Virus record (IMG/VR): IMGVR_UViG_3300028268_000002
Location: 1-48,824 of that record
Source: a virus
Strand: one strand, 5' to 3'
Length of the DNA stretch: 48,824 nt
Positions 950 to 42,804 of this stretch are shown piece after piece. A program made the translations under genes and the position numbers. The notes under the pieces were generated by a model. That model saw nothing but the letters and a program-made list of their open reading frames with translations, did no database searches and had not been told where the DNA came from. Numbering within the stretch: position 1 is the stretch's first letter; each line of letters starts with the position of its first letter.

Positions 950-985
950 AGGAGGAGAAAGATGCCACAGATTAGGAGTAGAATA

Positions 986-1053
986 GGGGTGTCGGGAGCG
1001 GTGAACTCCCGGTAAAAATCGCCAACAAGAACTGGAGGTTCTGATGACACCCC
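986..1053 (+). ncRNA. Three-way-junction 5'UTR RNA enclosing RBS and start codon, copy 1
   Basis: P1 GGGGTGTC (986-993) pairs with GACACCCC (1046-1053). P2 GGGAG (994-998) pairs with CTCCC (1006-1010). P3 AGAAC (1028-1032) pairs with GTTCT (1038-1042) and has loop TGGAG, which carries the Shine-Dalgarno. ATG 1044-1046 sits between P3 and the 3' strand of P1. A second copy at 12856-12922 keeps all segment lengths (17 nt between P2 and P3, 3 nt between P3 and P1'), with compensatory changes at one P2 pair and four P3 pairs. This supports a real cis-acting RNA controlling translation. No known riboswitch class was recognised. Confidence 0.75.
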
Positions 1054-1085
1054 AAGAAATGATTATCCCACGCAGTATATTGTGA
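1044..1085 (+). CDS. 13-residue peptide under the structured RNA leader
   Basis: ATG ACA CCC CAA GAA opens a 13-codon ORF (MTPQEMIIPRSIL, stop TGA). Its first five codons match those of the 40-residue protein behind RNA copy 2 (12913). It may be a leader peptide, a decayed relative of that protein, or simply the coding part of the RNA element. The start is inside the junction of the structured RNA. Confidence 0.4.
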   Translation: MTPQEMIIPRSIL

Positions 1086-1141
1086 GGCAGTCAAACAACT
1101 ACACGGAGAATTCGCAAGAGCAGCATGAAAGAGAGGAAATA

Positions 1142-12142: not shown

Positions 12143-12850
12143 ATGGCGATCACGCTGGCAAATCTTTTAACAGATCTAGCAGGGCGCGTTGAGGAGATAA
12201 ATCCCAACGCGCCTGTGTTTTGGTCGTTGACCTACGAGTTCCTTCCTGCTTTGGTCGATGCAATGTTTGAGGCGGCTCTCATCACGGGAACCGTTCAGGC
12301 AGTTAATATCCCGGTGACTCTGCCGGCTAACACCACGTATATCTCACTTCAAAACAACGCGACGATTGGAATACCGGCGGGGGTGATAGCGGCTTTGCGG
12401 TTGCGTCAGCCGTTCCCCGTGAGGAAGACTTCACTGAAGGCTTTGGACGACATGAACCCGTCCTGGCAGAAGGCGGCGGCGGGGACGCAGTTGCAAAGCT
12501 GGTTTCCTCTGGGCGTTTCTCAGTTCGGAATCTACCCGCAGTTGAGTTCCCCGATCACTGCCCTCATGGATTTCATCGTCAGCCCGGTCACGGTAGCGCG
12601 GCCGTACACGACCAGTATTCCAGTCCCATTCTTGACTGAATTTGTCGATGCTTTCAGCATGGCGGCGGCCGTAACTCTCCGTGCAAAAGAATTAGGACAG
12701 GAAGCAGAGGAAGCATCCCAGACCATGAACGACTATCTCCAACAGATGAAGGCGCTGTCTCTCTGGCAGAATCGTTTGGATTCTCTAGTCCTGACAAGTG
12801 CGTATGGAGCTAAAGCAAGGACCGCTACTCAGAAGCGCGATTTGGTGTGA
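12143..12850 (+). CDS. Adaptor-like head-tail connector protein (2 of 3)
   Basis: ATG 12143 follows AGGTGGAGAAGC. The 235-residue product has N-terminal helices (ITLANLLTDLAGRVEEINPN, then LPALVDAMFEAALITG), a beta region with SWFPLGVSQFGIYPQL and C-terminal helices (MAAAVTLRAKELGQEAEEAS). The order matches the proteins at 9695 and 14121, suggesting three related connector subunits or paralogues. It ends 5 nt before structured RNA copy 2. Confidence 0.55.
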   Translation: MAITLANLLTDLAGRVEEINPNAPVFWSLTYEFLPALVDAMFEAALITGTVQAVNIPVTLPANTTYISLQNNATIGIPAGVIAALRLRQPFPVRKTSLKALDDMNPSWQKAAAGTQLQSWFPLGVSQFGIYPQLSSPITALMDFIVSPVTVARPYTTSIPVPFLTEFVDAFSMAAAVTLRAKELGQEAEEASQTMNDYLQQMKALSLWQNRLDSLVLTSAYGAKARTATQKRDLV

Positions 12851-12855
12851 TAATA

Positions 12856-12922
12856 GGGGTGTCGGGTGTAGAAGCACCCGGCGGAACTCAGCCCTATCGT
12901 CTGGAGGACGACATGACACCCC
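12856..12922 (+). ncRNA. Three-way-junction 5'UTR RNA enclosing RBS and start codon, copy 2
   Basis: P1 GGGGTGTC (12856-12863) pairs with GACACCCC (12915-12922). P2 is GGGTG/CACCC (12864-12868/12875-12879). P3 is TCGTC/GACGA (12897-12901/12907-12911) with loop TGGAG. ATG 12913 lies between P3 and P1'. Compared with the copy at 986, P1 is invariant because part of it is coding, P2 has one A-U to U-A swap, and P3 has four compensated pairs, while the loop TGGAG and the linker lengths are kept. The Shine-Dalgarno and start codon are inside the fold, so ligand- or protein-dependent translation control is the natural reading. Confidence 0.75.
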
Positions 12923-13035
12923 AAGAAACAACTGTACCAGTATGCCGCTATTGCGGTCCAGAGTGCCTTATTGAATACGGTCTTTGCCACTTTAGCATCG
13001 CGCAGGTGAAATCGGTAGACGTTCCCTTAGAATGA
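12913..13035 (+). CDS. 40-residue zinc-finger-like protein under structured RNA
   Basis: ATG ACA CCC CAA GAA (MTPQE) matches the start of the peptide at 1044. The product continues VPVCRYCGPECLIEYGLCHF, with CxxC, CxxxC and a CH pair that could bind zinc, and ends VDVPLE. The SD is presented in the P3 loop of the RNA leader. A small zinc protein that binds its own leader is one possible feedback arrangement, but nothing in the sequence proves it. Confidence 0.6.
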   Translation: MTPQETTVPVCRYCGPECLIEYGLCHFSIAQVKSVDVPLE

Positions 13036-13042
13036 GGTGAAA

Positions 13043-13066
13043 ATAGGGTTTGGAGACGAACCCTAT
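13043..13066 (+). promoter_or_regulatory. Hairpin presenting the Shine-Dalgarno of the 13065 gene
   Basis: ATAGGGTT (13043-13050) pairs perfectly with AACCCTAT (13059-13066) around loop TGGAGACG, which contains GGAG. The first two bases of the ATG at 13065 are the last pair of the stem. The leading AATAGGG and the TGGAG loop repeat motifs of the three-way-junction RNA just upstream, so this may be a reduced version of it. Confidence 0.65.
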
Positions 13067-17848: not shown

Positions 17849-18027
17849 CCTATCTTGGAATCGACCGCAGTGACGGCAAGACGGCCGAGCAGAAGGCTGA
17901 CATCCTGAAGTATCTTCCGAAGGAGAAGATTGCCTTCGTAATCGACGATCGCCCGTCTGTCATCCGGATGTGGCGCGAGAATGGCTTGAGCGTGATTCCG
18001 GTGCGCGGAGCCTGTGAGGAGTTTTGA
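17845..18027 (+). CDS. C-terminal part of a Pnkp-type HAD phosphatase (truncated)
   Basis: A 60-residue ORF from GTG 17845. AFVIDDRPSVIRMWRENGLS matches the conserved final segment of the phosphatase domain of T4-like polynucleotide kinase/phosphatase (DDRxxVxxMWRxxG). The catalytic DxDGT motif and the kinase P-loop of full Pnkp are missing here and in the upstream gene, so it cannot be an active phosphatase alone. It is translated by overlap directly into the RNA ligase gene (TGATG), keeping the T4 order of end-healing and end-sealing genes. It could be a degenerate remnant or a small regulator. Confidence 0.65.
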   Translation: MTYLGIDRSDGKTAEQKADILKYLPKEKIAFVIDDRPSVIRMWRENGLSVIPVRGACEEF

Positions 18028-19133
18028 TGCAGATATTTGATTATGTTGACCGCGAGAGACTGATGCAGCAGATCACCGATGGGATGGTGAAAGAGCAGGT
18101 CCACCCGTCACTTCCTCTGCGGATTTTGAACTATACACAGAAGGCCCAGTACACCCCGGAGCTATGGAACGAGGTGACTGACAAGTGCCGCGGCCTGATA
18201 TTCAATTCGCAGACCGGCGAGATCATTGCGCGTCCGTTTGTAAAATTCTGGAATTACTCAGACCAGCGCCATCCTGAGACGATGCCTGAGAACTATCCCG
18301 CAACCGTGCCGACAATCACACGGAAGATGGATGGGAGTCTCGGAATCCTGTATTGCTACGAGGGCGAGTGGGCCGTGGCGACCCGTGGATCGTTCACATC
18401 CGATCAGGCGAAGTGGGCTACCTCTGTTCTCGGCTTGCATCACCCTAACTTCAGGTGGGTGGACGGGTTCACCCCGATCGTAGAGATCATCTACCCAGAA
18501 AACCAGATAGTCGTCAAGTACGATTGGGCTGATCTTGTTCTTCTGTCGGGAGTAAGAAACAGAACCGGCGAAGAGATGACCCGCGAGGTGCTTGAGGAGT
18601 TGGCGATCAAGAATCGTCTTCGCCTAGTTGATGCTTTCGATAAGAGCATCGAGATTTGCGCGTCAGAGGACATCGAGAACGAAGAGGGATACGTTGTGGC
18701 GTGGAATCGACCTGGAACATGGCCTCTGCGGGTCAAGGTGAAAATGGCGACCTACTGTAGACTTCATCGGTTGTTGACCGGGACTAACCCGGTAACGGTT
18801 TGGGAGATGCTGAGGGATGGACTTGACTTGACGACGGTGACAACGGACGTGCCGGCCGATTTTGTGGTGTGGATCGACAGCGTGGAGAGTTCACTTCGCA
18901 AATCCTATAAGGTGATCGAGGATGCGGCTTTGGTTGCAATGCTGGAATACGAGGGGGAGAAGATCATCGCAACCCCAGAGCAGCGCAAGCAGTTCGCCCT
19001 CTATGCGGTGACAAAACAGCCAGTGACGCCGATTCTCTTTGCGATGCTCGACGGAAATAATTACGCGCCGATCATCTGGAAAATGGTGAGGCCGAAGGCA
19101 ACCGATACATTCAAAACTGACGAGGAGGGGTGA
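18027..19133 (+). CDS. rnlA: RNA ligase, T4 Rnl1 family
   Basis: A 368-residue protein. The nucleotidyltransferase motif I is KMDGSLG (KxDG, adenylated lysine). Downstream come motif III-like TPIVEIIYPENQIVVKYD, motif IV NEEGYVVAW and motif V VKVKMATY. The helical C-terminal region matches the Rnl1 layout and T4 Rnl1 length (about 370). The enzyme seals 5'-phosphate and 3'-hydroxyl RNA ends, in T4 to repair tRNA cut by host anticodon nucleases. ATG 18027 overlaps the preceding stop, and its own stop overlaps the next ATG. Two tRNA genes lie downstream. Confidence 0.88.
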   Translation: MQIFDYVDRERLMQQITDGMVKEQVHPSLPLRILNYTQKAQYTPELWNEVTDKCRGLIFNSQTGEIIARPFVKFWNYSDQRHPETMPENYPATVPTITRKMDGSLGILYCYEGEWAVATRGSFTSDQAKWATSVLGLHHPNFRWVDGFTPIVEIIYPENQIVVKYDWADLVLLSGVRNRTGEEMTREVLEELAIKNRLRLVDAFDKSIEICASEDIENEEGYVVAWNRPGTWPLRVKVKMATYCRLHRLLTGTNPVTVWEMLRDGLDLTTVTTDVPADFVVWIDSVESSLRKSYKVIEDAALVAMLEYEGEKIIATPEQRKQFALYAVTKQPVTPILFAMLDGNNYAPIIWKMVRPKATDTFKTDEEG

Positions 19134-19461: not shown

Positions 19462-19536
19462 CGCGGGGTGGAGAAGTGGTATCTCGGTGCGCTCATAACG
19501 CACAGGTCGCTGGTTCGAGTCCAGCCTCCGCAACCA
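19462..19536 (+). tRNA. tRNA-fMet-like (anticodon CAT), encoded CCA
   Basis: A complete 75-nt cloverleaf: acceptor CGCGGGG/CTCCGCA, D arm GAGA-AGTGGTA-TCTC, anticodon arm GTGCG-CTCATAA-CGCAC (CAT at 19494-19496), T arm GCTGG-TTCGAGT-CCAGC, then ACCA. It shows initiator hallmarks: an unpaired C1/A72, an A11:T24 D-stem pair, and three consecutive G/C pairs at 29-31, although the middle pair is inverted (C30-G40) compared with the classical GGG/CCC. The acceptor and D/anticodon context resemble bacterial tRNA-fMet. An elongator-Met or Ile2 role cannot be excluded but would not need C1/A72. Confidence 0.85.
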
Positions 19537-19613
19537 GGGCGCGTAGCTCAGTTGGAAGCAGCAATTCCCTCTTAAGGAAAAGGTCGAAGGTTCGATCCCT
19601 TCCGCGCCCACCA
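19537..19613 (+). tRNA. tRNA-Lys (anticodon CTT), encoded CCA
   Basis: A 77-nt cloverleaf abutting the previous tRNA: acceptor GGGCGCG/CGCGCCC, T arm GAAGG-TTCGATC-CCTTC, anticodon arm ATTCC-CTCTTAA-GGAAA (CTT at 19571-19573, reads AAG), then ACCA. The outermost anticodon-stem pair is A-A mismatched and the D arm is slightly irregular. AAG is heavily used in this phage, notably in the basic proteins. Confidence 0.85.
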
Positions 19614-30020: not shown

Positions 30021-33000
30021 ATGGCACAGGCGGATGAGCTTTACAAAGAAGTCGTTAAGCCTAATGCGGAAGCTCGTCCGAAAACAAGCCAAGCAGATGC
30101 GTTAGCTATGTCTGTTTTAGGCCACGAGACCCCAAAGCAAGAGGGTAAAAATGCAAAGGTGCCCACTCAGAAGGCAAGCCAAGCAGATGCGTTAGCTATG
30201 TCGATTTTGGGACATGAAACTCCTTTGCAGACGAGCACATCTCCATCTACAGCGACCCAACCGGACTACCGCAAGCAGATCCACGACTCGACAATCGGGG
30301 AAGGTTACAGTGAAGAGCAAGCGCAACAGCGGTTGCACGAGTACGACTATTCCATTAGCCGAGATTTGTCGCCATATAACGCGTTCAATCTGGCGTCTTC
30401 CGTGGCGTTTGACAAGGCCGAGAAGAAGATACTGAGTAGCCAAGAGCGGGGTACAGTCTACCAGCAGGCGAAAAAGCACGCCGAAGAGATTCTGGAGGCC
30501 AACCGAAACACTCCTATCTCGGATAACTCCACATTAAACACGGAAGCATTTAAGATTGTTGCGGCTGGAGGACCGGATGCGTGGGCGAAGGGATATACGG
30601 AAAACTACGCTCGTTCCAAGTCGAAGAGGTACAACGAAACAGATGCTAGGGCGCACGCCGGGGGAGAGATTGACGAGTCGGTTTACGATTTCCTTCAATC
30701 GACAGGGTTTAGTTCTGACCATTCATATCTACTGTCTGATAAGGGCGAAAGGTACATCAGGTTCTCTGTCGCCAAGACAGCGGATTCTCTGGAAAAAAGC
30801 GGACACCCCTACGTTGGGGCGTTCCTTCAAGGACTGACGGAGATGGGGATTGGCCTCACCACTCCGAGCATGGTGGCGATAGGTCTGGCAACGAAGGGCG
30901 CTGGAGCATTCTCCAAAGTAGAGCCGTTTGCGGAAGTAGCCACGGCAGAGGGAACGGAAGACGCAGCCAAGGCAACGTCCATAGCCGGGCGCTGGCGCCG
31001 TGCCTACAAAGCGGCGAAGGCGACTACAGCAGCCGCCGCAAGGAAGGCAGCCGTATCAACTGCTAAGAGTGCCGGTGAGACGTTTGCGAAGGTAGCTCCA
31101 GACAGCGCGGCAGGAGTTGCGGAGGCTACAGGGAAGGCTTCGGAGAGTGTTGCGAAGGCGACTGAGGCTATTCGCGGTGCAAAGCTCCCGGTGAGCGCAG
31201 TCCATGTGGCAAGGACGATCAACGAGGCCACTCATGCGTATTTCTCTGCTCAGATGACGATGGGCGCGATGCAAGGCGCAGAGCGGTTTGGCGAGGGGAC
31301 GAAAGCAGAACTTGAGAGAGTAGGAGCGATAGGCAAAGGAGCTGAGGGAGCGACTCTTTCAGAGAAGGCGTTACGCGCTTATGGCGGGGACTATTCCAAG
31401 CCTGTCGCTGCGCTTTTGGTCAACACGGTCATCGGCGGACTCATGGCCTACGGCGGCGCGAAGTCACTGATCGAAGCGGAAGGCTTCAAAATCAAAGCCG
31501 ATGCGATGACAGAGAAGTTGTACGGTACTCCGGGGGAAGTCGAGGGCGAAGGACCGAAAGAAAGACCGGCAAGCAAGTTTTCCGACCTGAATGATTACCA
31601 GCAGGCCGTTGTGCTGACGAAACTTATTGAGGAAGATCCGGCGTACAGCCATGCTTGGGTTGAGACGAAGAAAGAACATGATCGCCGGATGAAGAAGTTG
31701 AACTACCGTTACAACCAGAATCTTCAGAAAGCGTGGAACCCGGACGCAGTTCAAAGAGCAGTTCGGGTGATTGACTACCACCAAGCATTCGCAGAGTGGG
31801 AGGATGAAGCCCGCGCTCACTACCTGAAGCAGATCACGAAACTTATTAACCTCCACAAACAGGACAGGGCAGATGAAGCAGAGCTTGCGGAGTATGAGCA
31901 AGAGCGCCGGGCCGCAGGAAGAGAAGGCCGCCCGGTACGGAAGACGGAAGCTGCCAGGAAAAGAGAAGAGGCCCGCAAGGTCACGCTGACAAACGCGGCA
32001 CAGATTGCCGAAGCGCGGCAGGGCGCAGGGACCGCCCGCGAGGAAGCGGACAGGGAAACGGCCGCTCAAGAGCAGGAAGCGGCAGAGACACTGGCTCAGA
32101 TCAAATCCCTTCGGGTAAATGCCGACTACGCTCTTGAGGAGCATGGCTCGACGCCGGAGCGAGAAGCGGAACGCACGCTACTCCGAAATTTGGAGCGGCA
32201 ACTGGTAGACGGCGAGATTACCGGGGAGCAGGCGCGGAAGGGAGCCGGTCTGCCGGAAGAGAAGTCGGAAGAGGAAGAGCGGAGGTCCACCACATATCAG
32301 GAGATCGAGGCCGCCAGAGCAGGGGCATTGTATGGGCTTCTTTATGGACGGACGATAGCGCAGTTTGAGGACGATTTCCTTTCCGAACTGGAGAGTGCCG
32401 GCTGGAATCCCGAAGACATCGAAGCAGCTATCGACACCATTGGTCCCACTCTTCGGATGGAGGCCGAGAACAACCTGCACTACGTAGGAAAATCTGGAGA
32501 CTACATTGTTTCCAAGAAGGGCGTCACCTGGAGACTCGACAAATACGGGATGCTTCAGCCGGACGGTTTTGCGGTTGCGCCGATTCCGTTGATGAAGAAT
32601 GGCCGATACACGGCACAGGCGATCGACCTTGCAATGTCGGGGAAGGTTGGTTTTGGTCGTAGCCCCCTAGAGGAACAGAGAGTAGAGGTGGCGAAGGAAC
32701 ACACGGCCGCCCAGATGCTCGACAATCTTTCACAGGCCGAGAAAGATGAACTTGAAAGGGCCGTCAGACTGTCGCAGCAAAACGAAGGGTTGCTACTGGA
32801 AGCAGGCGAACTGCCGGCGGAGAAACCAGTTCCGAACAGGAAGAAGGGATTCGCTCCTCCAGTTGAGCGTCCGACTCCAGAGATGGAGGAGGATCGCACC
32901 GTAGACGAAGGTTATGATCCACTGATCGAAGCCATTGGCTCCCAGATAGAGAACCCTGAATCTCACGCGAAGGGGCCGGGAATTATTGCGCGGATAGCGA

Positions 33001-36000
33001 AGAATAGCGGCCTGACTCCAGCGCAGGTCGTTGGATTGTTCCGTGAATCGGAGGCCAAGCCGGACACTCTGAAAGGGAAGATCGAGTGGCTGCGGGTTGG
33101 AGACACTATCTCCGACAAGATGGGACTCCCTTGGGTAGTGGAGGGTGACGCGAACGGGAAGTTGTATCTCCGCAAAGGTGAGGGCGGAGCCAGAATCCCA
33201 TTTGACAAGGACAAGCCGAGCGATACCGTGCGAAGAATAGTCGGCAACGGTGAAGTGCAATCTACGGCCCGTACACAGTACACACAAGAGGACGCACGTC
33301 GCATTGTGTTTGAATCCTCGATCGTCATTGCTCAGAATGAGGCGATAGAGAGAGTCAAGGAATTGGCGGAGAACCCACCTCCACCGCCACGGACGCAGGA
33401 GCAGGCTGAAGAGCAGGTCAAGCAGGCAGAGGCCCGTGAGGCACAAGTCAACGACGCAGCCGTGGAAGCTATTGCGGCGGCGGTTGACCCTACCCCAAAG
33501 GCGACCGACGAAGAGATCGACAAGGCTGTTGCGAAGGCCGAGGAGTTGCGAAAGGTAGCCGAGGCTGCGGCGAAGCAGACGGCGGAAGCGCAGGGTCGTG
33601 CCGCAGGTCCGGGAGACTATCCTCAGAAAGCTCCGATCACCTCGAAGCGAGTCCCACGGATGGCGTGGGCAGTCGGGCATGAAGGGTATATCCAGACGAA
33701 CGCCAGCAAGATCCCCATGCACCGCGAACTCGTCAAGTTGAGCCAACTCACCCCGTCTTTTAGGTGGAACGGGAATATGTTGGAGCGGGTTCCTGAGTAC
33801 CCGGAACAGATGCAGGACGTTCCACCGGACGAAGCGACACGCCAGCAAGTTTTGGCAGATGCTCAGCCTGTTCGGTACGACGTTGACCATTATCTCGATC
33901 CTGGTCATGGCCCAGAGCGGGGACCGGCCATTGTCGATGGTGGCGGCGACGTGGCGGGAGGGAATCGCCGTCTGTTGAGGATGATGAAGTATCTGGAGTT
34001 GATACAAGACGACAAGGTTGCTCTTGCTCAGTTCCGTGCGAAGATGGCCGATTACGCCCAAAAGAACGGGATGATTTACCCGGAGGGAGATGAAATCTAC
34101 ATCCCAGTCAGGATGATGGATGAACCTATTGGCACTATAGCCAAGGCGACTAAGTTAGGAAACCTGTTCAACAAGAAAGCATCGCACGGCATTGACGAGA
34201 ACGCGAAGTCGATCACTTACGGACGGATGCTCTACGAGGCCCAAAGGGCTGAAGAGGCAGTAGGGCGCAATGGAGTTTTGGATCGTATCGCCGATGAGTT
34301 CAACAGCGCCGACACGCCGCGAGACGCAATGGCAAACAGACCTGAATTCTTTGCCAACATAGTGCGTAAAGAACTTGGGATCGGCGGTGAGGATCAAGCA
34401 GACTGGTTTAACAAGAACGCACAGGGAGAGTATGAATTCTTGAGTACAAACGGCAAGGAGAAGTTAGAGAAAGCCCTGCTTGCTACGGTACTGAAGAATC
34501 CTTCCACGCTCGATACGTTGGGAACCTCGACGGCCTACGATTCTCTGTTGAAGTCGATCGGCCCAATGACCCGGCTTCGCGCCGTGCCGGACAAGGACAT
34601 CACCGGAATCATCGAACAGGCGATTCAGGCGACGGCGGTCACGGAGAGAATGAAGGCCGCGGGAGACTCGCCGAGGGCGCGGTGGAACAAGGCGTTTGCT
34701 GAGCATGATTTCTTTTCTGAAGACCCACAACTGCCGGAGCCGGACAGGATGGTGGAAGCTGTCTGGAGGTCGCTGCATGATCGAAAGACGACCCGCTTCA
34801 AAAACGCTCTTAATGATTATCTGGTTGGAGAGGGAATCCAGAAGGGTTTCTTTGATCCGGCAGAGCATGGCCTGAATACGCCTGCTGATTTGTTCAACGC
34901 AGCCTTCGAGGACGAACTGAAGGACGTGAAAGATTCGCGTGGCGTAAATAGTGAAGAGGCTCGTGGCAAGAAGGGCCATGATGCTATGCAGGAATATCTG
35001 AAGTCTCTTCCGTGGGAGTTAACTCAAGACCAGTTCGACGCTGCGATGCGGAACGAGCCGGAGGCGGGAGATTCGATTGCGAAGCTGGTTGAGGAGGGAG
35101 TGCCACGCAGGCCGGATAAGAAAGCGGAAAGGAGAGCAGGGGGCAAGGAAGAGACGAGACAGGAGCGTGAGGAATACATCAAATTCACAGATTCCTTAAT
35201 CTCGAAACTGAGAAAGATGGGGCTTGTTCCCGGAACTCCAGATTGGGATATTGAAGAGGCCGATGCGGATCGCAGGTTTGAATCGGGAGAGAAAAATGTA
35301 GTAGAGAAACTTGGTAAGCGTGAGGCTCAAAATATCCCAGAGAGGATTCATAGTTATGCCGACGACCTGACTAGCTCGAAAGGGGGAACCGCTCCCATCG
35401 TAAACGCAGTACAGGCTATCACATCTGAAAAATTAGGGGAACCTGCACTGACGTTGATTTACGACCTTGGGAATATAGAACTCCCGAGAAGCAGCGAGTC
35501 TGCCGAGCAGAGAGTTGGCGAGTTACTTGGGAAAACGAGTGTCGATCATACAGGCGATCCTGAAGGCATAGCGAAGGTAAGCGGAAGATATTTCCGTATT
35601 ACGCCGCAAGAAGCGCCTAAAGGAGAAATGCCACACGAGGAAGTTGCGGCAGGATCGCCAGAGGGGATCGAATACTTTGTAGAAGTCAAAGAGGTTCCAG
35701 GTTTTGCGGAGAAGATGCAGGGCAAGAACCGCAGACACTTATCTGGAAGAGAAACTACGCCACCAGGCTACATCTCCCGCTTTGAGGAATTGATTAGCAG
35801 GGAACTTGAGGACCGCCGTGTAAGTGGTCAAGGTTTTGACATTGATGACGAGACATTAAGTAGGTTGAGTAAGAAGGCGGAATACGAGGCGGAAATTGCA
35901 GCTTCAAAAGGACAATCTATCGACGAATATCCGACGCAAGAAGAAGTTGATTCTGCCATTTCCAGATTAGAAGCGATGGCGAAAGGAGAGACGCTCGAAG

Positions 36001-39000
36001 AAAAGCCGAAGGAAACAACAGTCGAGGGCGGATCGAAGAAAATGTTTGTCACAAAGCGTGACGAACTCGATCTGAAGGGGCTTGGGTGGAAGCAAGACCA
36101 GATCAACAAAATGACCCCAGAGGAAGCGGAGAATATTCTTTCTCTTGGGACGCGGGCGCCGAAGGGATTCAAGCCTCCAGAGGCTCCAGCACCGAAGCCA
36201 GAAGTTGACCTGTCGGCGTCCAAGGCAGAGAAGGGCTACGTCACCCCCGACGAACTGGAGAAGGCTCTTTACGCGAACCATGTCACGGCGAAGAATGCCC
36301 CTGAATTTATTCATGCAGCAGGGATAATGGCTCAAGGGTGGTGGGATTTGCAGGATGATGTCCCGACAGGTTATGAGAGAAAGGATGCTCTAGCTTGGCT
36401 CTTGAGAGAGATAGGGTTCCGGGGCATTCAATCTGGGGAGAAGGGGGCAAGGGGAGAATACGACTTTGCGACGGGGATGATGCGAGTGATGGAAGCGGCA
36501 GACGCCACAACATTCTGGCATGAGTGGTTCCACGCAATATCTCCAATGCTGACTGCGAAGGATTGGGAAGCGGTAGACACTATCGAGATCGATCCTACGG
36601 CGTTTAAGCGCGAGTACGGCAAGAAGTGGGAGTTCCCCAAGTGGGACAAGAAGTACGATGCTCAGGGAAATCTTTTAATGCCCAAAGGAAAGGAATTGGA
36701 TGGTCTTCGGGAGAAGTTGTCTTACGGGTCAGAGAAATACCATCGGGACGAGAACCTCCACGACTTCCATATCACCTATGAAGCGCGAGAGATATTGAAG
36801 AAGATCAAGAAACTCTTCGTCGAAACGTACAAGAAATGGCTTCCGGGCGACCCTCTATCTCCATTCAAACTCAGCGAGGAGGCGAAGGGGCTTTACGACA
36901 GTCTTTATGGTGTGGAGGGCCATAAACTTTCTGACGACTGGAACGAGAAAGTCAAGGAAGCCCGAAAAGCGGAGGCCAAGCAAAAGAAAGGCATGGTCAA
37001 GCCTGAAGAGGCATTGCATCCGGTTATTAAGATCGCCAAGGATCTAGGCCCGACGCCCACTCATATATCGCGTGGAAGCGAGTGGCCGATAGTCGAGTCT
37101 GACGGTGATCGTGTTGCCTACGAGAAGACTAATAACACAGTTGTTTTAGAGTACCCGGATGAAGAGAATGCCGCACACGCCTATGTGCAGGCGACTATGG
37201 AAGGCAGCGGAATATCGGGAGTAGAGGAACTGAAGGGACCGGACGGCAAGTTTGCTATTCGTTTTAACTGGGGTCTGCCTGAAAAGGGGTCGAAAGAAAA
37301 GCCCAAGGAGATCCCAAACAGCATCCTCTACCAAGAGGTTCCGAAGCGGAATGAGCAACTTCAGATTGAGAAGTTGGAAGATTTGCTCAAGAAGACTTCA
37401 GCCCCTTTCATGCAGCAATTCGTGAGAACGCAGATTAAGAAGTTAGAGTCAGAGATTCGCGCCAAGTACGGGGTAGAGAGCCCAAAAATTGGACTCGACC
37501 CGGAGGCAGCGAGAAAAGCAATAGCGGAGGTGAAGCGTGGCACAGCAGGGAGAACGTCAGACGCAGGAAGAGAGAGGGTATCCGACTTACGAGGAGTACC
37601 TGATGGACCTCTTGGGGATGGAAAGCAAAGCGGAGTTGGACGCCTTTCTAAACCGCCCGTCGTGGGGATGCCTGGATATGCAGGTGCCAGAGGTGCCACC
37701 GATCGAACTGGACCCGGAAGAGGAAATGCTCAACCAGTTAACCTCGCAAACGTAGCGCCGGTCAAGCTGAATCCATTACCGGAGCGCGGGGCGCCGGTAG
37801 GGATCATGGCGGGTGAAGCGTTCGACGAGAAGGCATGGAGGGACGGACTGAAGAGGGCTGGACTCCCGGAGAATATGCCTGCGCCGACAGTGACGCTCTC
37901 TCCAGAAGTTGCCCGGACGTTAAAGTATGCAGGTCAGAAGCAAATTGTCCAGACGGTTCTCTCCGCATTGGAGCAGGGCGACGGGGCTGTGATCGCTTCC
38001 GTGGCGGGTTCAGGCAAGACTTGGACCGAGATGGGTGTGGTGAAGGAGACGATCCTTCGGAACCCCGATGCGAAGATTCTTGTCGTTACGATGAATCGGG
38101 GACTACTCGAAGATGGCGACGATGCCGTTAGGCAGGTTGCGAAGAACGGCTATGATCTGAAGGTAGAAACCGACATCATCGACAAGCCTCCAGAGCCGGG
38201 AGTCTACGGGGCAACATATCAGCGGTTGCTTAACAACTCCATCTACTCGAAAACTCCATGGGACTTGGTGATTGCTGACGAAGCCGGAGCAGCACGCAAC
38301 TGGTACAGAGACGAAAACCAGCAAGGCAAACTTTTGAAGGTTGTGATGGAAAACTCCAAAAAGGGAGTTTACGTTTCAGCTACTCCATTCCATTCTCCCA
38401 ACGAGTACGGCTATGCGGAGAAGTTGAACCTGTGGCCGAAGGGCGGTTTTGAGGGATGGATAAAAGAAAACTTTGCTCACGAGAAGGTGGGCGACAAGAT
38501 CGTTGCGAAGCTCGACCCGGCGAAGCAGGCAAAACTACGTGAGCAGATGGTTGAGCGTGGACAGTTCATCTCGCAGCAAATCTCCTATGATGGATTTTCT
38601 GTTCACTTTGGAGTGGTCCCTGTAACCGACGTGGTGGAACGGAAGTTGGACCGCATTCATCAAGGTGTAGCGGTGATGAAGAGGGAGTTATTGAAGCAAG
38701 GAAAGAAGGGACTCTCCGAGAGAGTATCTGCTTTTGAGGCGACATACACGAAAGCCTACCTTGAGAGGTCGAGACTGCCAGAAGCAATCCAACTTATCAA
38801 GAGAGCGAGAGCGCAGGGTTGGCAAGTCGCGGTATTCTCAGAGACCACATCGGAGGACTTGTTCCGTCGGCCGGTTGGACCAAAAGAAGAGCCGGGAACG
38901 TATCGGTTGCTTGATGAAGAGACTGGTGGGCAGATAGGGCGCATCATGCCGGAGTTCGTAAACATTGCAGATCAACTTCGCGCAGAGTTTGGCGACGAGA

Positions 39001-42000
39001 TGGGCGACTACAGTGGAGTAGGAAACACCGACGCACAGCGCGAAGAGGCAAAACAGGCTTTCTTGAAGGGAGAAAAGAAGATACTGTACACGTCCTATGC
39101 CGCAGGAGGAATAGGGATAAACTTGCAGGACAAAGACGGAGATAAACCGCGGTTGTCGATATTCCTTGGACCACCGTATTCTGGTATCTTGCTTGAGCAA
39201 TCATTGGCGAGGACGTGGCGGCTTGGCGTGAAGTCGAACGCGAGGGCGGTATTCCTTGCGACAGACTCAGAGCCGGATATTCGCCTTATGTCAACCAAGA
39301 TTGGGCCTCGCATGAGGGCGTTAAGCGCGGCGGTTCTAGGAGATAGAGATTCATTGGCTTCGGTCATGTCGAACTACTCCGACGAAGAGAAGATGCGCGA
39401 ACATCAGGACATGATGGCGTTCGACCAAGGCAACGAAATAAAAGTCGATGCTCAAGGATTCCAAGTCCGCAGCAAGCGCAAGGTCAACTTCGACAACTGG
39501 AGTTCGATCACCTTCCCGAACGCGGAAGAGGCAAAGAACAAGGGGATGCAGGTAGAGATGTCCGGCGGCGGGAAGGGAAGTGACTGGGCTACGCTCTATC
39601 AGGAGAAGCCGAAGCGGTGGGAGCCACCGAACAGACCTTTGACGATTGAGGACATTCGCATCCGGCGGGCGGTGAACGCGGCGGCGGACAAGGCGGCGGC
39701 GAACCCTCAGATCCCCCACGAAGAGATCACCATGACGGCTGTGAGGGCCGAGGAAGTGGCGAAGGCCGCGCCGGAGGGAGTGGACAAGGAAGCTGTAGCG
39801 CGAGACACCGTACAGATGCACCTGAAGGGCATGGGGTTCGAGCAGGACAACGCTACAGGCGGTTACACCCGGATGAAGAGCGAGAAGGAGCTTGAAAAAG
39901 AATCTGGGATGACGGACGAGGAACGGGCTAAGAATGACAAATTCAAGCCTGCTCCAGAGCCAGTGAAGGACGAGAAGTACACTGGCGCCCTGGGTCTGCT
40001 CAGTTCTCAAGAGAACAACCTGCAATCTCAGGACAGACAGTTCGCTTCACATTACAAGAAGAACCACATTGAGCCTGTCGGAAGGATTCTCGTCACAAAG
40101 ACGCGGGCGTGGTATGCGGGACAAAAAGTTCATCTTGCCGGCCTGCGAACGGACTTCACAAAGATTATGCAGGAGGCAAAACTTGACCACACAGACAAGC
40201 GGGTGATGCGTGACCTCTTCGATGTAGTGATGAACAAGAGAGCGGTGTCTGACCCTGCGATCAACAAGGCGGCAGGGAAACTCAGAGAGTTCATGGCGAA
40301 GATTCACCAAATGGGAGCCGAGGGAAATCTTGCGGTGATAACCCCAGATGGTCGGGTTGTGTCGTGGAAGGACTTCATGGACGATCCGAGTTATATGCCG
40401 CGTATTGCAGACTGGGACTTGAAGTTCACCGATGGAGATAAGACCTACACTCTCAGGGAGCTTATGGGAGGGACGTTCAGCGAACTGAAGGCCAAGGAAC
40501 TTATTGCCAAGAAACTCAAAGAGGAGGGCAGGACCGATATTACGGATGACAAAGCATACGACCTTATCAAACGTGATCGTTTGAGGGCACCTATGCAGGG
40601 CAACACCCAGTGGACGAACGAAGTCAACTTCCCGTTCATCAAGAAGGACTATGAGGCGCTTGACAGTTACTTCAGGCAGTTCGCAAAGTCGATGGCGACC
40701 GAAAAAGAGTTTGGAGCGGACCTTGGGAAGTTGAAGAAGGAGATTGCAAAGATCCCGAACAAGCAGGCCCGGACGGATGTAGAGGGCATGTTCGGCTATA
40801 TGTTCACACCGCAGAATTGGGATAGCCCCATGAGCAAGACGTACAATCGTTTGGCGGCTGCTGAGACTGCGACGAAGATGTTCCCATTTTCGGTTACGAA
40901 GTTGCCGTTCCATATAGCCAACGGGGCGGCGATTATGGCGAAGACCGGCCACTATATGCCGTATGCAAGGGCGATAGTGGATTTGGCGGCAAACTGGAAA
41001 AACGTGAAGGAGTACAGTTACTTCAACGGCATAGTGATGCACGGGATTGATCCGGCTGTTATGGCAATGCCGGAAACTCGCAGTCAACACGCGCTTTTTA
41101 AGTGGACCGGATTTGAGTATATGTACAACATGGGAAGGATGATTTCCGGCAGGGCGGCGAAGTCTTATCTTGACCTGTACGCTATGGGAGACCTGAAGAA
41201 AGGTGGCAATACCGCGGAGAGAGCGCGGCGTCTTATCAAGAACAGCTTCCTCATTGGAGATCACGCGATTGATGAGGCTGTTAGGACCGGGAAGTGGAAT
41301 GAGGAGGATTACAAACTAGCCCAGGTTGCGTTCACAGATGAGTCGATGTTCTCTGAGAACCCTATGCAGATGCCTGCACTGTCAAGAAAGAGGGTATCTG
41401 GAGAGGGACTGACAACACTTGACAAGAATTTTGCGATAGCGGCCAGGGCAGCGTGGTCTCTTGGGTCATTCTCCACGAAGGCGTACAACGTGCTTCGAGA
41501 GCATCTGTGGGACGAGGTGATGGTTTACGGAAACCTTAGACCTTTGGCATACGTGGCGCTTGTTTCTCCGATTATGGGGCAGATATTGCAGGGAACTTCA
41601 GCCGCGGCGAAGGGCGGGGTTCACCGTGTCGCACAGTGGGGGATGGGCAAGCAGCACACAGAGGATTCGTGGGACAAATACCTATCGCAATTTGACGGGA
41701 TGGAGGAGCATCCTGCGGCGACGTTCCTGAAGATCTACATTGACGGCATTTGCGCTCAGTGGGCTTTGGAAAGAACGAAGCGGTATGCAGACGCTTTCCT
41801 AAATCTAGCGATCGACGACAAGCCGAGCCTAGATAAAGCGAAGGACATGGGAACGTATCTCCTTGAGGATGAAGCAGAGGGGACTATCGGGCCGATGTGG
41901 ACAGACACGGTGCTGCATCCGATGAAGCTCACTGCGGAGGAAATCTATGCGTTAGCCATCAGTCGAGAGCGGCAGTTGAAGGGCAAGCCGGGATCGTTCT

Positions 42001-42140
42001 GGCCGAGAACCGGGAAGAATGTGTTACGCATGACCAGGGACACGTTGTCGCTGTTGCGCCAGGAGCCGCTTACGGAAGAGGAACTTGCGCCGAAAAAGAA
42101 AAAAGGTATGCAAGCTGCGCCGGAGCGTTGGTATAAGTAA
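30021..42140 (+). CDS. Giant polyvalent ejected protein (ParB-like, metallopeptidase, SF2 helicase domains)
   Basis: A 4039-residue protein, a quarter of the window. Seen: a duplicated N-terminal peptide; hydrophobic stretches near residues 270-300 and 455-490; coiled coil around 530-760; a DdrB/ParB-like segment near 1280-1330 (GGNRRL); a zincin site HEWFH at 2167-2171; an SF2 helicase with VAGSGKT at 2661-2667, DEAG at 2753, SATP at 2786 and motif VI QSLARTWRLG at 3060-3069; then a long helical C-terminus with a hydrophobic segment near 3840-3860. This is the layout of phage polyvalent proteins delivered with DNA to protect it and act on the host. Residues 2500-2590 are low-complexity and cover a better ORF in another frame. 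Confidence 0.75.
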   Translation: MAQADELYKEVVKPNAEARPKTSQADALAMSVLGHETPKQEGKNAKVPTQKASQADALAMSILGHETPLQTSTSPSTATQPDYRKQIHDSTIGEGYSEEQAQQRLHEYDYSISRDLSPYNAFNLASSVAFDKAEKKILSSQERGTVYQQAKKHAEEILEANRNTPISDNSTLNTEAFKIVAAGGPDAWAKGYTENYARSKSKRYNETDARAHAGGEIDESVYDFLQSTGFSSDHSYLLSDKGERYIRFSVAKTADSLEKSGHPYVGAFLQGLTEMGIGLTTPSMVAIGLATKGAGAFSKVEPFAEVATAEGTEDAAKATSIAGRWRRAYKAAKATTAAAARKAAVSTAKSAGETFAKVAPDSAAGVAEATGKASESVAKATEAIRGAKLPVSAVHVARTINEATHAYFSAQMTMGAMQGAERFGEGTKAELERVGAIGKGAEGATLSEKALRAYGGDYSKPVAALLVNTVIGGLMAYGGAKSLIEAEGFKIKADAMTEKLYGTPGEVEGEGPKERPASKFSDLNDYQQAVVLTKLIEEDPAYSHAWVETKKEHDRRMKKLNYRYNQNLQKAWNPDAVQRAVRVIDYHQAFAEWEDEARAHYLKQITKLINLHKQDRADEAELAEYEQERRAAGREGRPVRKTEAARKREEARKVTLTNAAQIAEARQGAGTAREEADRETAAQEQEAAETLAQIKSLRVNADYALEEHGSTPEREAERTLLRNLERQLVDGEITGEQARKGAGLPEEKSEEEERRSTTYQEIEAARAGALYGLLYGRTIAQFEDDFLSELESAGWNPEDIEAAIDTIGPTLRMEAENNLHYVGKSGDYIVSKKGVTWRLDKYGMLQPDGFAVAPIPLMKNGRYTAQAIDLAMSGKVGFGRSPLEEQRVEVAKEHTAAQMLDNLSQAEKDELERAVRLSQQNEGLLLEAGELPAEKPVPNRKKGFAPPVERPTPEMEEDRTVDEGYDPLIEAIGSQIENPESHAKGPGIIARIAKNSGLTPAQVVGLFRESEAKPDTLKGKIEWLRVGDTISDKMGLPWVVEGDANGKLYLRKGEGGARIPFDKDKPSDTVRRIVGNGEVQSTARTQYTQEDARRIVFESSIVIAQNEAIERVKELAENPPPPPRTQEQAEEQVKQAEAREAQVNDAAVEAIAAAVDPTPKATDEEIDKAVAKAEELRKVAEAAAKQTAEAQGRAAGPGDYPQKAPITSKRVPRMAWAVGHEGYIQTNASKIPMHRELVKLSQLTPSFRWNGNMLERVPEYPEQMQDVPPDEATRQQVLADAQPVRYDVDHYLDPGHGPERGPAIVDGGGDVAGGNRRLLRMMKYLELIQDDKVALAQFRAKMADYAQKNGMIYPEGDEIYIPVRMMDEPIGTIAKATKLGNLFNKKASHGIDENAKSITYGRMLYEAQRAEEAVGRNGVLDRIADEFNSADTPRDAMANRPEFFANIVRKELGIGGEDQADWFNKNAQGEYEFLSTNGKEKLEKALLATVLKNPSTLDTLGTSTAYDSLLKSIGPMTRLRAVPDKDITGIIEQAIQATAVTERMKAAGDSPRARWNKAFAEHDFFSEDPQLPEPDRMVEAVWRSLHDRKTTRFKNALNDYLVGEGIQKGFFDPAEHGLNTPADLFNAAFEDELKDVKDSRGVNSEEARGKKGHDAMQEYLKSLPWELTQDQFDAAMRNEPEAGDSIAKLVEEGVPRRPDKKAERRAGGKEETRQEREEYIKFTDSLISKLRKMGLVPGTPDWDIEEADADRRFESGEKNVVEKLGKREAQNIPERIHSYADDLTSSKGGTAPIVNAVQAITSEKLGEPALTLIYDLGNIELPRSSESAEQRVGELLGKTSVDHTGDPEGIAKVSGRYFRITPQEAPKGEMPHEEVAAGSPEGIEYFVEVKEVPGFAEKMQGKNRRHLSGRETTPPGYISRFEELISRELEDRRVSGQGFDIDDETLSRLSKKAEYEAEIAASKGQSIDEYPTQEEVDSAISRLEAMAKGETLEEKPKETTVEGGSKKMFVTKRDELDLKGLGWKQDQINKMTPEEAENILSLGTRAPKGFKPPEAPAPKPEVDLSASKAEKGYVTPDELEKALYANHVTAKNAPEFIHAAGIMAQGWWDLQDDVPTGYERKDALAWLLREIGFRGIQSGEKGARGEYDFATGMMRVMEAADATTFWHEWFHAISPMLTAKDWEAVDTIEIDPTAFKREYGKKWEFPKWDKKYDAQGNLLMPKGKELDGLREKLSYGSEKYHRDENLHDFHITYEAREILKKIKKLFVETYKKWLPGDPLSPFKLSEEAKGLYDSLYGVEGHKLSDDWNEKVKEARKAEAKQKKGMVKPEEALHPVIKIAKDLGPTPTHISRGSEWPIVESDGDRVAYEKTNNTVVLEYPDEENAAHAYVQATMEGSGISGVEELKGPDGKFAIRFNWGLPEKGSKEKPKEIPNSILYQEVPKRNEQLQIEKLEDLLKKTSAPFMQQFVRTQIKKLESEIRAKYGVESPKIGLDPEAARKAIAEVKRGTAGRTSDAGRERVSDLRGVPDGPLGDGKQSGVGRLSKPPVVGMPGYAGARGATDRTGPGRGNAQPVNLANVAPVKLNPLPERGAPVGIMAGEAFDEKAWRDGLKRAGLPENMPAPTVTLSPEVARTLKYAGQKQIVQTVLSALEQGDGAVIASVAGSGKTWTEMGVVKETILRNPDAKILVVTMNRGLLEDGDDAVRQVAKNGYDLKVETDIIDKPPEPGVYGATYQRLLNNSIYSKTPWDLVIADEAGAARNWYRDENQQGKLLKVVMENSKKGVYVSATPFHSPNEYGYAEKLNLWPKGGFEGWIKENFAHEKVGDKIVAKLDPAKQAKLREQMVERGQFISQQISYDGFSVHFGVVPVTDVVERKLDRIHQGVAVMKRELLKQGKKGLSERVSAFEATYTKAYLERSRLPEAIQLIKRARAQGWQVAVFSETTSEDLFRRPVGPKEEPGTYRLLDEETGGQIGRIMPEFVNIADQLRAEFGDEMGDYSGVGNTDAQREEAKQAFLKGEKKILYTSYAAGGIGINLQDKDGDKPRLSIFLGPPYSGILLEQSLARTWRLGVKSNARAVFLATDSEPDIRLMSTKIGPRMRALSAAVLGDRDSLASVMSNYSDEEKMREHQDMMAFDQGNEIKVDAQGFQVRSKRKVNFDNWSSITFPNAEEAKNKGMQVEMSGGGKGSDWATLYQEKPKRWEPPNRPLTIEDIRIRRAVNAAADKAAANPQIPHEEITMTAVRAEEVAKAAPEGVDKEAVARDTVQMHLKGMGFEQDNATGGYTRMKSEKELEKESGMTDEERAKNDKFKPAPEPVKDEKYTGALGLLSSQENNLQSQDRQFASHYKKNHIEPVGRILVTKTRAWYAGQKVHLAGLRTDFTKIMQEAKLDHTDKRVMRDLFDVVMNKRAVSDPAINKAAGKLREFMAKIHQMGAEGNLAVITPDGRVVSWKDFMDDPSYMPRIADWDLKFTDGDKTYTLRELMGGTFSELKAKELIAKKLKEEGRTDITDDKAYDLIKRDRLRAPMQGNTQWTNEVNFPFIKKDYEALDSYFRQFAKSMATEKEFGADLGKLKKEIAKIPNKQARTDVEGMFGYMFTPQNWDSPMSKTYNRLAAAETATKMFPFSVTKLPFHIANGAAIMAKTGHYMPYARAIVDLAANWKNVKEYSYFNGIVMHGIDPAVMAMPETRSQHALFKWTGFEYMYNMGRMISGRAAKSYLDLYAMGDLKKGGNTAERARRLIKNSFLIGDHAIDEAVRTGKWNEEDYKLAQVAFTDESMFSENPMQMPALSRKRVSGEGLTTLDKNFAIAARAAWSLGSFSTKAYNVLREHLWDEVMVYGNLRPLAYVALVSPIMGQILQGTSAAAKGGVHRVAQWGMGKQHTEDSWDKYLSQFDGMEEHPAATFLKIYIDGICAQWALERTKRYADAFLNLAIDDKPSLDKAKDMGTYLLEDEAEGTIGPMWTDTVLHPMKLTAEEIYALAISRERQLKGKPGSFWPRTGKNVLRMTRDTLSLLRQEPLTEEELAPKKKKGMQAAPERWYK
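30085..30202 (+). repeat. 28-nt direct repeat in the 5' end of the giant gene
   Basis: The sequence at 30085-30112 is repeated exactly at 30175-30202 (begins CAAGCCAAGCAGATGCG), in frame 90 nt apart. It encodes two copies of SQADALAMSxLGHETP. It could be a targeting or processing signal used twice, or a recent duplication. Confidence 0.75.
37537..37755 (+). CDS. Candidate nested gene inside the giant gene (+1 frame)
   Basis: A 72-codon ORF from GTG 37537 with GGAGGTGAAGC as Shine-Dalgarno. The product looks like a normal acidic protein (YPTYEEYLMDLLGMESKAEL, then PPIELDPEEEMLNQL). The giant gene frame over the same bases is Gly/Arg/Ser/Pro-rich and unlike a folded protein (TAGRTSDAGRERVSDLRGVP). 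This suggests the nested frame is real and older, or that the giant gene arose by fusing two genes across a small one. Experimental support is lacking. Confidence 0.45.
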   Translation: MAQQGERQTQEERGYPTYEEYLMDLLGMESKAELDAFLNRPSWGCLDMQVPEVPPIELDPEEEMLNQLTSQT

Positions 42141-42143
42141 GTT

Positions 42144-42183
42144 GGTGTATACTTCGAGTATCTCCAAACAGGAGATGAGGAGG
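42144..42183 (+). repeat. Tandem-hairpin repeat C, copy 1
   Basis: 40 nt directly after the giant gene stop: GGTGTATACTTCGAGTATC..., forming ATACT-TCG-AGTAT (42149-42161) and TCTCC-AAACA-GGAGA (42161-42175), then TGAGGAGG as a free Shine-Dalgarno. Copy 2 at 42765-42804 differs at two positions only. Confidence 0.75.
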
Positions 42184-42723: not shown

Positions 42724-42760
42724 CTCCTAAGAAGAAGACCGGGAAGTGACAGGTTCCGTA
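42724..42760 (+). repeat. Structured repeat B, copy 1
   Basis: 37 nt (CTCCTAAGAAGAAGACCGGG...), identical except for one base to 43658-43694. A CGGGAA/TTCCG hairpin is inside it, and the 5' CTCCT can pair with AGGAG at 42712-42716. It lies 4 nt before repeat C copy 2. Confidence 0.75.
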
Positions 42761-42764
42761 AGAG

Positions 42765-42804
42765 GGTGTATACTGCGAGTATCTCCAAACAGGAGACGAG
42801 GAGG
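42765..42804 (+). repeat. Tandem-hairpin repeat C, copy 2
   Basis: GGTGTATACTGCGAGTATC...; stems ATACT-GCG-AGTAT and TCTCC-AAACA-GGAGA are kept, while the two changes relative to copy 1 fall in unpaired positions. Ends in GAGGAGG, 2 nt before ATG 42807. Confidence 0.75.

Follow-up and report, generated by a model that had tools for sequence, protein, structure and literature searches.

Leader RNAs that sequester the ribosome-binding site have been described for several genes, viz. those of I-TevI, I-TevII, I-TevIII, segB, Aeh1 mobE and gene e (PMC2988022, PMC3014915). If a gene of this kind is transcribed by read-through, then a helix in the RNA hides its translation start, whereas the transcripts from the gene's own promoter lack the 5' arm of this helix (PMC2988022, PMC3014915). 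Selfish nucleases persist in phages only when their expression causes little harm, and in T4 this has been solved gene by gene with hairpins and a late promoter; the sequestering helices or hairpins of the T4-type leaders have likewise been described gene by gene, together with T4 middle or late promoters. The leader RNA reported here was found in a stretch of viral DNA of 48,824 nucleotides (IMG/VR record IMGVR_UViG_3300028268_000002, positions 1 to 48,824; the whole of this stretch is referred to as the window), and it resembles the T4-type leaders in having a homing-type nuclease downstream and a helix that hides the start in silico; its putative promoter is inferred to be placed so as to skip the 5' arm. 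However, it differs from them in that the 3' arm of its helix P1 extends into the coding sequence, in that its box is TATAAT-like and lacks a -35 element, and in that a single conserved RNA with four helices is shared by nuclease families that are unrelated to each other, as well as by other genes; its apparent reuse in many phages points to a safety catch for mobile nucleases that is standard and transferable. The T4 late promoter TATAAATA (gp55) is not matched by this TATAAT-like box, which makes membership in the T4 set less probable but does not lessen the likeness in manner of working. By this comparison, the mode of action of the leader seems to be that of the T4 start-site-dependent leaders, but the leader is a multi-helix module, both conserved and portable, and has another type of promoter. 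The first-pass annotation knew of no class with this layout; a close functional precedent, which it did not name, exists in the T4-type leaders (PMC2988022, PMC3014915).

The window contains two copies of the leader, both on the + strand, at 986-1053 (copy 1) and 12856-12922 (copy 2). In copy 1, the helices are P1 (986-993/1046-1053), P2 (994-998/1006-1010), P2b (1011-1013/1021-1023) and P3 (1028-1032/1038-1042), with the loop TGGAG at 1033-1037 and the start codon at 1044-1046 (+); in copy 2 they are P1 (12856-12863/12915-12922), P2 (12864-12869/12874-12879), P2b (12880-12882/12891-12893) and P3 (12897-12901/12907-12911), with the loop TGGAG at 12902-12906 and the start codon at 12913-12915 (+). 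The layout initially described for the two copies, comprising an 8-bp P1, a 5-bp P2, a 17-nt linker, a 5-bp P3, the TGGAG loop and 3 nt before P1', proved to be exact, as did the compensated changes between them, which affect a single pair of P2 (A-U to U-A) and four of P3. These helices form the minimum free energy (MFE) fold of both copies (z -3.7 and -4.95), with none of 200 shuffles folding as well, and the G of the start ATG is in both cases paired within P1. The RNA had been described as a three-way junction; its helices hold, but their count does not, as there are four of them with P2b, a mini-hairpin of 2-3 bp (GGN...N'CC) in the 17-nt linker that is seen in both window MFE folds and in most homologues. 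By eye, both window copies could form a pseudoknot between the P2 loop and the linker, but this idea was dropped as the homologues are inconsistent in this regard.

The first search for relatives, in which a pattern of P1 plus the start codon was sought in IMG/VR, returned real relatives mixed with chance matches. A model built from three relatives of equal length (R1) already recovers both window copies, and a second model (R2), based on 12 relatives with the window copies excluded, recovers 12856-12922 at E 8.4e-9 and 986-1053 at E 8.6e-6; the bit scores of the window copies under R2 are 34.8 and 46.4, compared with at most 28.4 for chance sequences preselected for P1. Two other searches were independent of the P1 sequence. 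A search with the AP2/HNH proteins alone led to 80 loci, in 14 of which, 12 of them new, the leader lies directly at the start codon of the nuclease, and a scan for the P2/linker core, in which only the GTC of P1 was fixed, gave more copies; additional copies came from scans of whole contigs. Altogether about 41 distinct leader sequences of 62-69 nt were identified, all of them in phage contigs, several of which hold two or three. The covariance search proposed at first, which would have refuted the RNA had it found no further homologues, thus found them in number, and no family of Rfam 15, HEARO included, reaches its gathering score. The sample consists throughout of uncultured phage contigs whose hosts are unidentified. 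A search of 85k bacterial genomes with a 19-base P1 pattern yielded only chance matches, a search of 396 genomes of one phylum yielded no leader but carries no weight as evidence, blastn of phage and plasmid records for the leader gave nothing convincing, the leader is absent from four cultured phages that have distant HNH relatives, and no paper on it was seen in the literature searched, which covered few subscription journals. Judged from the sequences, the RNA family is well supported, and it is a new, previously uncatalogued one.

Covariation is observed in all three of the helices P1, P2 and P3. Because MAFFT alone misaligned P2 and P3, model-fitted alignments were used instead; since these are biased in favour of the structure, they were complemented by swap controls and by the scan that is independent of P1. 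In an alignment of 28 copies, 96.1% of the cells are paired compared with 79.9% after shuffling, ten pairs have changed on both sides (63 double-change cells in the 28 sequences), and none of 500 shuffles reaches any of the covariation measures; when the partners are slid by 1-3 columns, the signal collapses. Across 40 copies, pairing holds in 300 of the 320 cells of P1; swapping the 3' arms among copies leaves 251 paired on average and 270 at most. The first-pass annotation regarded P1 as invariant, which is true between the window copies but is not a trait of the family, where 24 different P1 combinations occur among the 40 copies (e.g. AAGGGGTC/GACCCCTT, ATGGGGTC/GACCCCAT, GGTTTGTC/GACAAACC and GGAGGGTC/GACCCTTC); in the variant GGCCATC/GATGGCC, the entire ATG is inside the helix. 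Among the 20 unpaired P1 cells, 16 are A-C. A C-A mismatch recurs at position 4 of P1 (GGGCTGTC/GACAACCC) in one group of copies (L220, L197, L209, L193, L301 and L303), where it perhaps tunes the strength of P1. The support for P2b is weaker, with GG..CC in 23 of the 28 copies and three or more pairs in 15, compared with 5.2 expected after shuffling of the linker. The junction core GUC..GG...CCGGC.AAGCCU is conserved, inspection of the sequences shows that the first and last bases of the P2 loop are in most cases U/G or C/A, two combinations that resemble wobble pairs, and the Shine-Dalgarno sequence is inside or beside the P3 loop in nearly all copies.

An association of the leader with particular genes is also observed. 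The downstream genes start at an ATG, GTG or TTG within the leader, and in most copies they encode a nuclease of homing type, as assigned by family, homing activity itself being inferred. They include, according to Pfam/PHROGs, HNH nucleases (phrog_99, phrog_374, phrog_3377, HNH_3), AP2/HNH nucleases, endonuclease VII (E 1e-12 to 1e-13) and a PD-(D/E)XK nuclease, and occasionally non-nuclease genes, viz. an N4/N6 DNA methylase and a PAPS-reductase-like protein. These unrelated proteins have the leader and the first codons in common, and many of the leaders lie 7-31 nt after a long open frame that points in the same direction.

In the window, both leaders precede remains of such genes. Copy 1 leads into a 13-codon ORF (MTPQEMIIPRSIL; 1044..1085, +), an N-terminal relic of an AP2/HNH nuclease resembling MTPHEDIIPYG of the homologue L112, and a C-terminal relic of the same nuclease (YCEAVKQLHGEFARAA, then a stop) follows in another frame at 1063..1128 (+), as detected by tblastn, for which leader-linked nucleases served as queries (best E 1.25e-4; identity to several of them 56-67%). 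Going by these two remnants, the interior of the copy 1 nuclease gene is deleted. The possibility that copy 1 and the next gene are translationally coupled via a GTGA overlap at 1082 was considered and rejected, as this stretch is the C-terminal relic. Copy 2 leads into a 40-aa ORF (12913..13035, +), which is a truncated N-terminal zinc domain of an HNH nuclease family (alignment; tblastn E 0.001). The suggestion that the phage's small zinc proteins act as regulators is therefore not borne out, as those beside the leaders are relics of nuclease genes. Copy 1 is unchanged in eight close relatives, 89%-identical relatives carry other genes at that place, and there are phages related at the copy 2 site that are without copy 2. 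As far as a nuclease is concerned, the window copies have probably become vestigial, yet P3 of copy 1 has kept all of its pairs. In addition, a strong Shine-Dalgarno sequence (GAGGAGGAG) and an ATG open a 17-codon ORF (962-1015, +) which crosses both P1 and P2 of copy 1; in a relative (L187) a real gene begins at this ATG, and due to this the cassette seems to have been inserted in, or substituted for, that gene.

Upstream of the leader, the 40 copies have only one conserved element in common, a TATAAT-like hexamer ending 0-3 nt before P1, the flanks being otherwise unrelated. Its match to TATAAT averages 5.2 of 6 positions compared with 2.45 at control positions, TANNNT is present in 38 of the 40 copies, and a -10-like box is observed at this distance in 38-39 of 40. 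In the window, the boxes are TAGAAT (979..984, +) for copy 1 and GATAAT (12849..12854, +) for copy 2, the latter overlapping the stop codon of the preceding gene. Promoter activity is inferred, and so is the start site, which is unmapped; sigma-70 spacing would place it inside the 5' arm of P1 (near 991 in copy 1 and near 12861 in copy 2), with a predicted 5'-GUC in 31 of 40 copies. No -35 element is visible in the upstream flanks, nor is there a consistent extended -10; lacking a -35, the box may depend on a factor from the phage, or it may be no promoter at all.

On balance, we consider it fairly probable that promoter and leader together form a conserved cassette, carried by phages at the 5' end of nuclease genes that are free-standing and of homing type, and that the start is hidden upon read-through. 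If a transcript comes from the upstream gene, then it would carry the whole of P1, the start codon and the next codons would be locked in the 8-bp helix, and no nuclease would be made. However, if the transcript originates at the embedded promoter, then it would begin within the 5' arm of P1, some 7 nt past the -10 box (the usual 5' ends being 5'-GUCGGG or 5'-GUCAGG), would be unable to form the full P1 and would be translated, with P3 presenting the Shine-Dalgarno sequence and P2 lying near the 5' end. Synthesis of the nuclease would thereby be tied to the time at which the embedded promoter is used, and both window leaders would be instances that persist before decayed nuclease genes. The covarying P1 includes the G of the start codon and codons 2-3. 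In silico, the mean energy needed to open the start region is 7.1 kcal/mol in the read-through RNA, compared with 2.8 if the RNA begins at the inferred start and 3.1 if the read-through RNA has an altered P1 5' arm, and the direction is as expected in 37 of 40 copies, with little or no predicted switch in L193, L216, L301, L299 and L287. This should be regarded only as a consistency check, because the loss of P1 upon truncation follows from geometry. The original proposal of a cis-regulatory RNA enclosing the Shine-Dalgarno sequence and the start codon is upheld by about 41 copies with heavy covariation, but the control of translation, in terms of both repression and relief, is inferred from layout and folding.

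Among the observations that count against this start-site-dependent switch are the 20 unpaired cells among the 320 of P1 and the conserved junction core, which exceeds the needs of a plain sequestering helix. The core lends weight to a ligand- or protein-binding switch, in which P1 would be stabilised or opened by a metabolite, by a host factor or by the nuclease itself, bound to the core and the P2 loop. Like translational riboswitches, the leader is a multi-helix junction enclosing the ribosome-binding site and the start codon, its start-codon helix could serve as the expression platform, the P2 loop ends mostly alternate between U/G and C/A, and one leader on many nucleases could answer one signal. 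However, although a conserved junction core with covarying helices meets the criterion for a riboswitch aptamer core, this feature is not specific to riboswitches. There is no evidence of a ligand and no match to an Rfam riboswitch, no common metabolic pathway links the downstream genes, the sharing of the leader by unrelated nuclease folds argues against autoregulation by the product, and the -10-like box embedded at the 5' edge is left unexplained, so that we regard a switch of this kind as rather unlikely. In the case of HEARO (OMEGA RNA, IscB-associated), too, mobile elements have a structured RNA before an ORF with an HNH domain. HEARO RNAs are much longer and are guide RNAs of IscB-type proteins, whereas the leader is of 62-69 nt, has no Rfam match and is linked to AP2/HNH, HNH_3, endonuclease VII or PD-(D/E)XK nucleases.

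The predicted start a few nt before P2, together with a Shine-Dalgarno sequence that almost always lies within or beside the P3 loop, would also suit a translation enhancer or mRNA stabiliser, where the GUC and the P2 hairpin of the own-promoter message protect its 5' end, P3 displays the Shine-Dalgarno sequence and P1 is secondary. However, the promoter-proximal half of P1 would be outside that message and it nevertheless covaries with the coding strand, which is otherwise unexpected unless longer transcripts also matter; we find this explanation improbable. A site acting at the DNA level (operator, recombination or homing target) is brought to mind by the -10-like box, since I-TevI also binds an operator overlapping its late promoter (PMC2988022), but a DNA site would keep its sequence and not its complementarity, and in view of the RNA-like compensated changes in three helices with variable loops, very little room remains for it. 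That the similarity is due to chance, or to two recent functionless duplicates, is hardly conceivable: while both window ORFs behind the leaders are relics, the approximately 41 divergent copies are mostly before intact genes, no shuffle in 500 matched the covariation, and a model free of the window finds the window. Chance is already refuted for the family, although the two window copies could themselves be vestigial.

An extension of the start-site-dependent reading, which can be put forward only tentatively, is that the promoter and the four-helix RNA form a portable module that recombines onto unrelated nuclease and moron genes in different phages and permits translation only after reading both the origin of the transcript and a factor bound via the junction core. 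The covariance model provides a tool for finding such nuclease genes and their relics, and the leader is a small natural element, the output of which is expected to vary with the transcript start.

Other features of the window were also seen. A simple hairpin at 13048-13066 (+), ATAGGGTTT-GGAGAC-GAACCCTAT, has a Shine-Dalgarno sequence in its loop and a stem overlapped by the ATG of the next gene; an A-rich hexamer, GAAAAT, stands directly before its 5' arm, and due to this the hairpin may work in the same way as a start-site-dependent leader. The 24-nt palindrome AGTCCAAAWTTTGGAGTRA, present in six copies just 5' of gene starts (528, 9672, 16637, 20744, 26070 and 46883, +), is possibly a second kind of shared leader or an operator. 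A 47-nt repeat (42137-42183 and 42758-42804, +; copies 91% identical) ends in a Shine-Dalgarno sequence and can form two hairpins, ATACT/AGTAT and CTCC/GGAG. Two adjacent tRNA genes (19462-19610, +) are located near an RNA ligase / tail-fibre attachment gene (phrog_562; 18024-19130, +), and a single open reading frame of 4039 codons (30021-42140, +) takes up about one-quarter of the contig.
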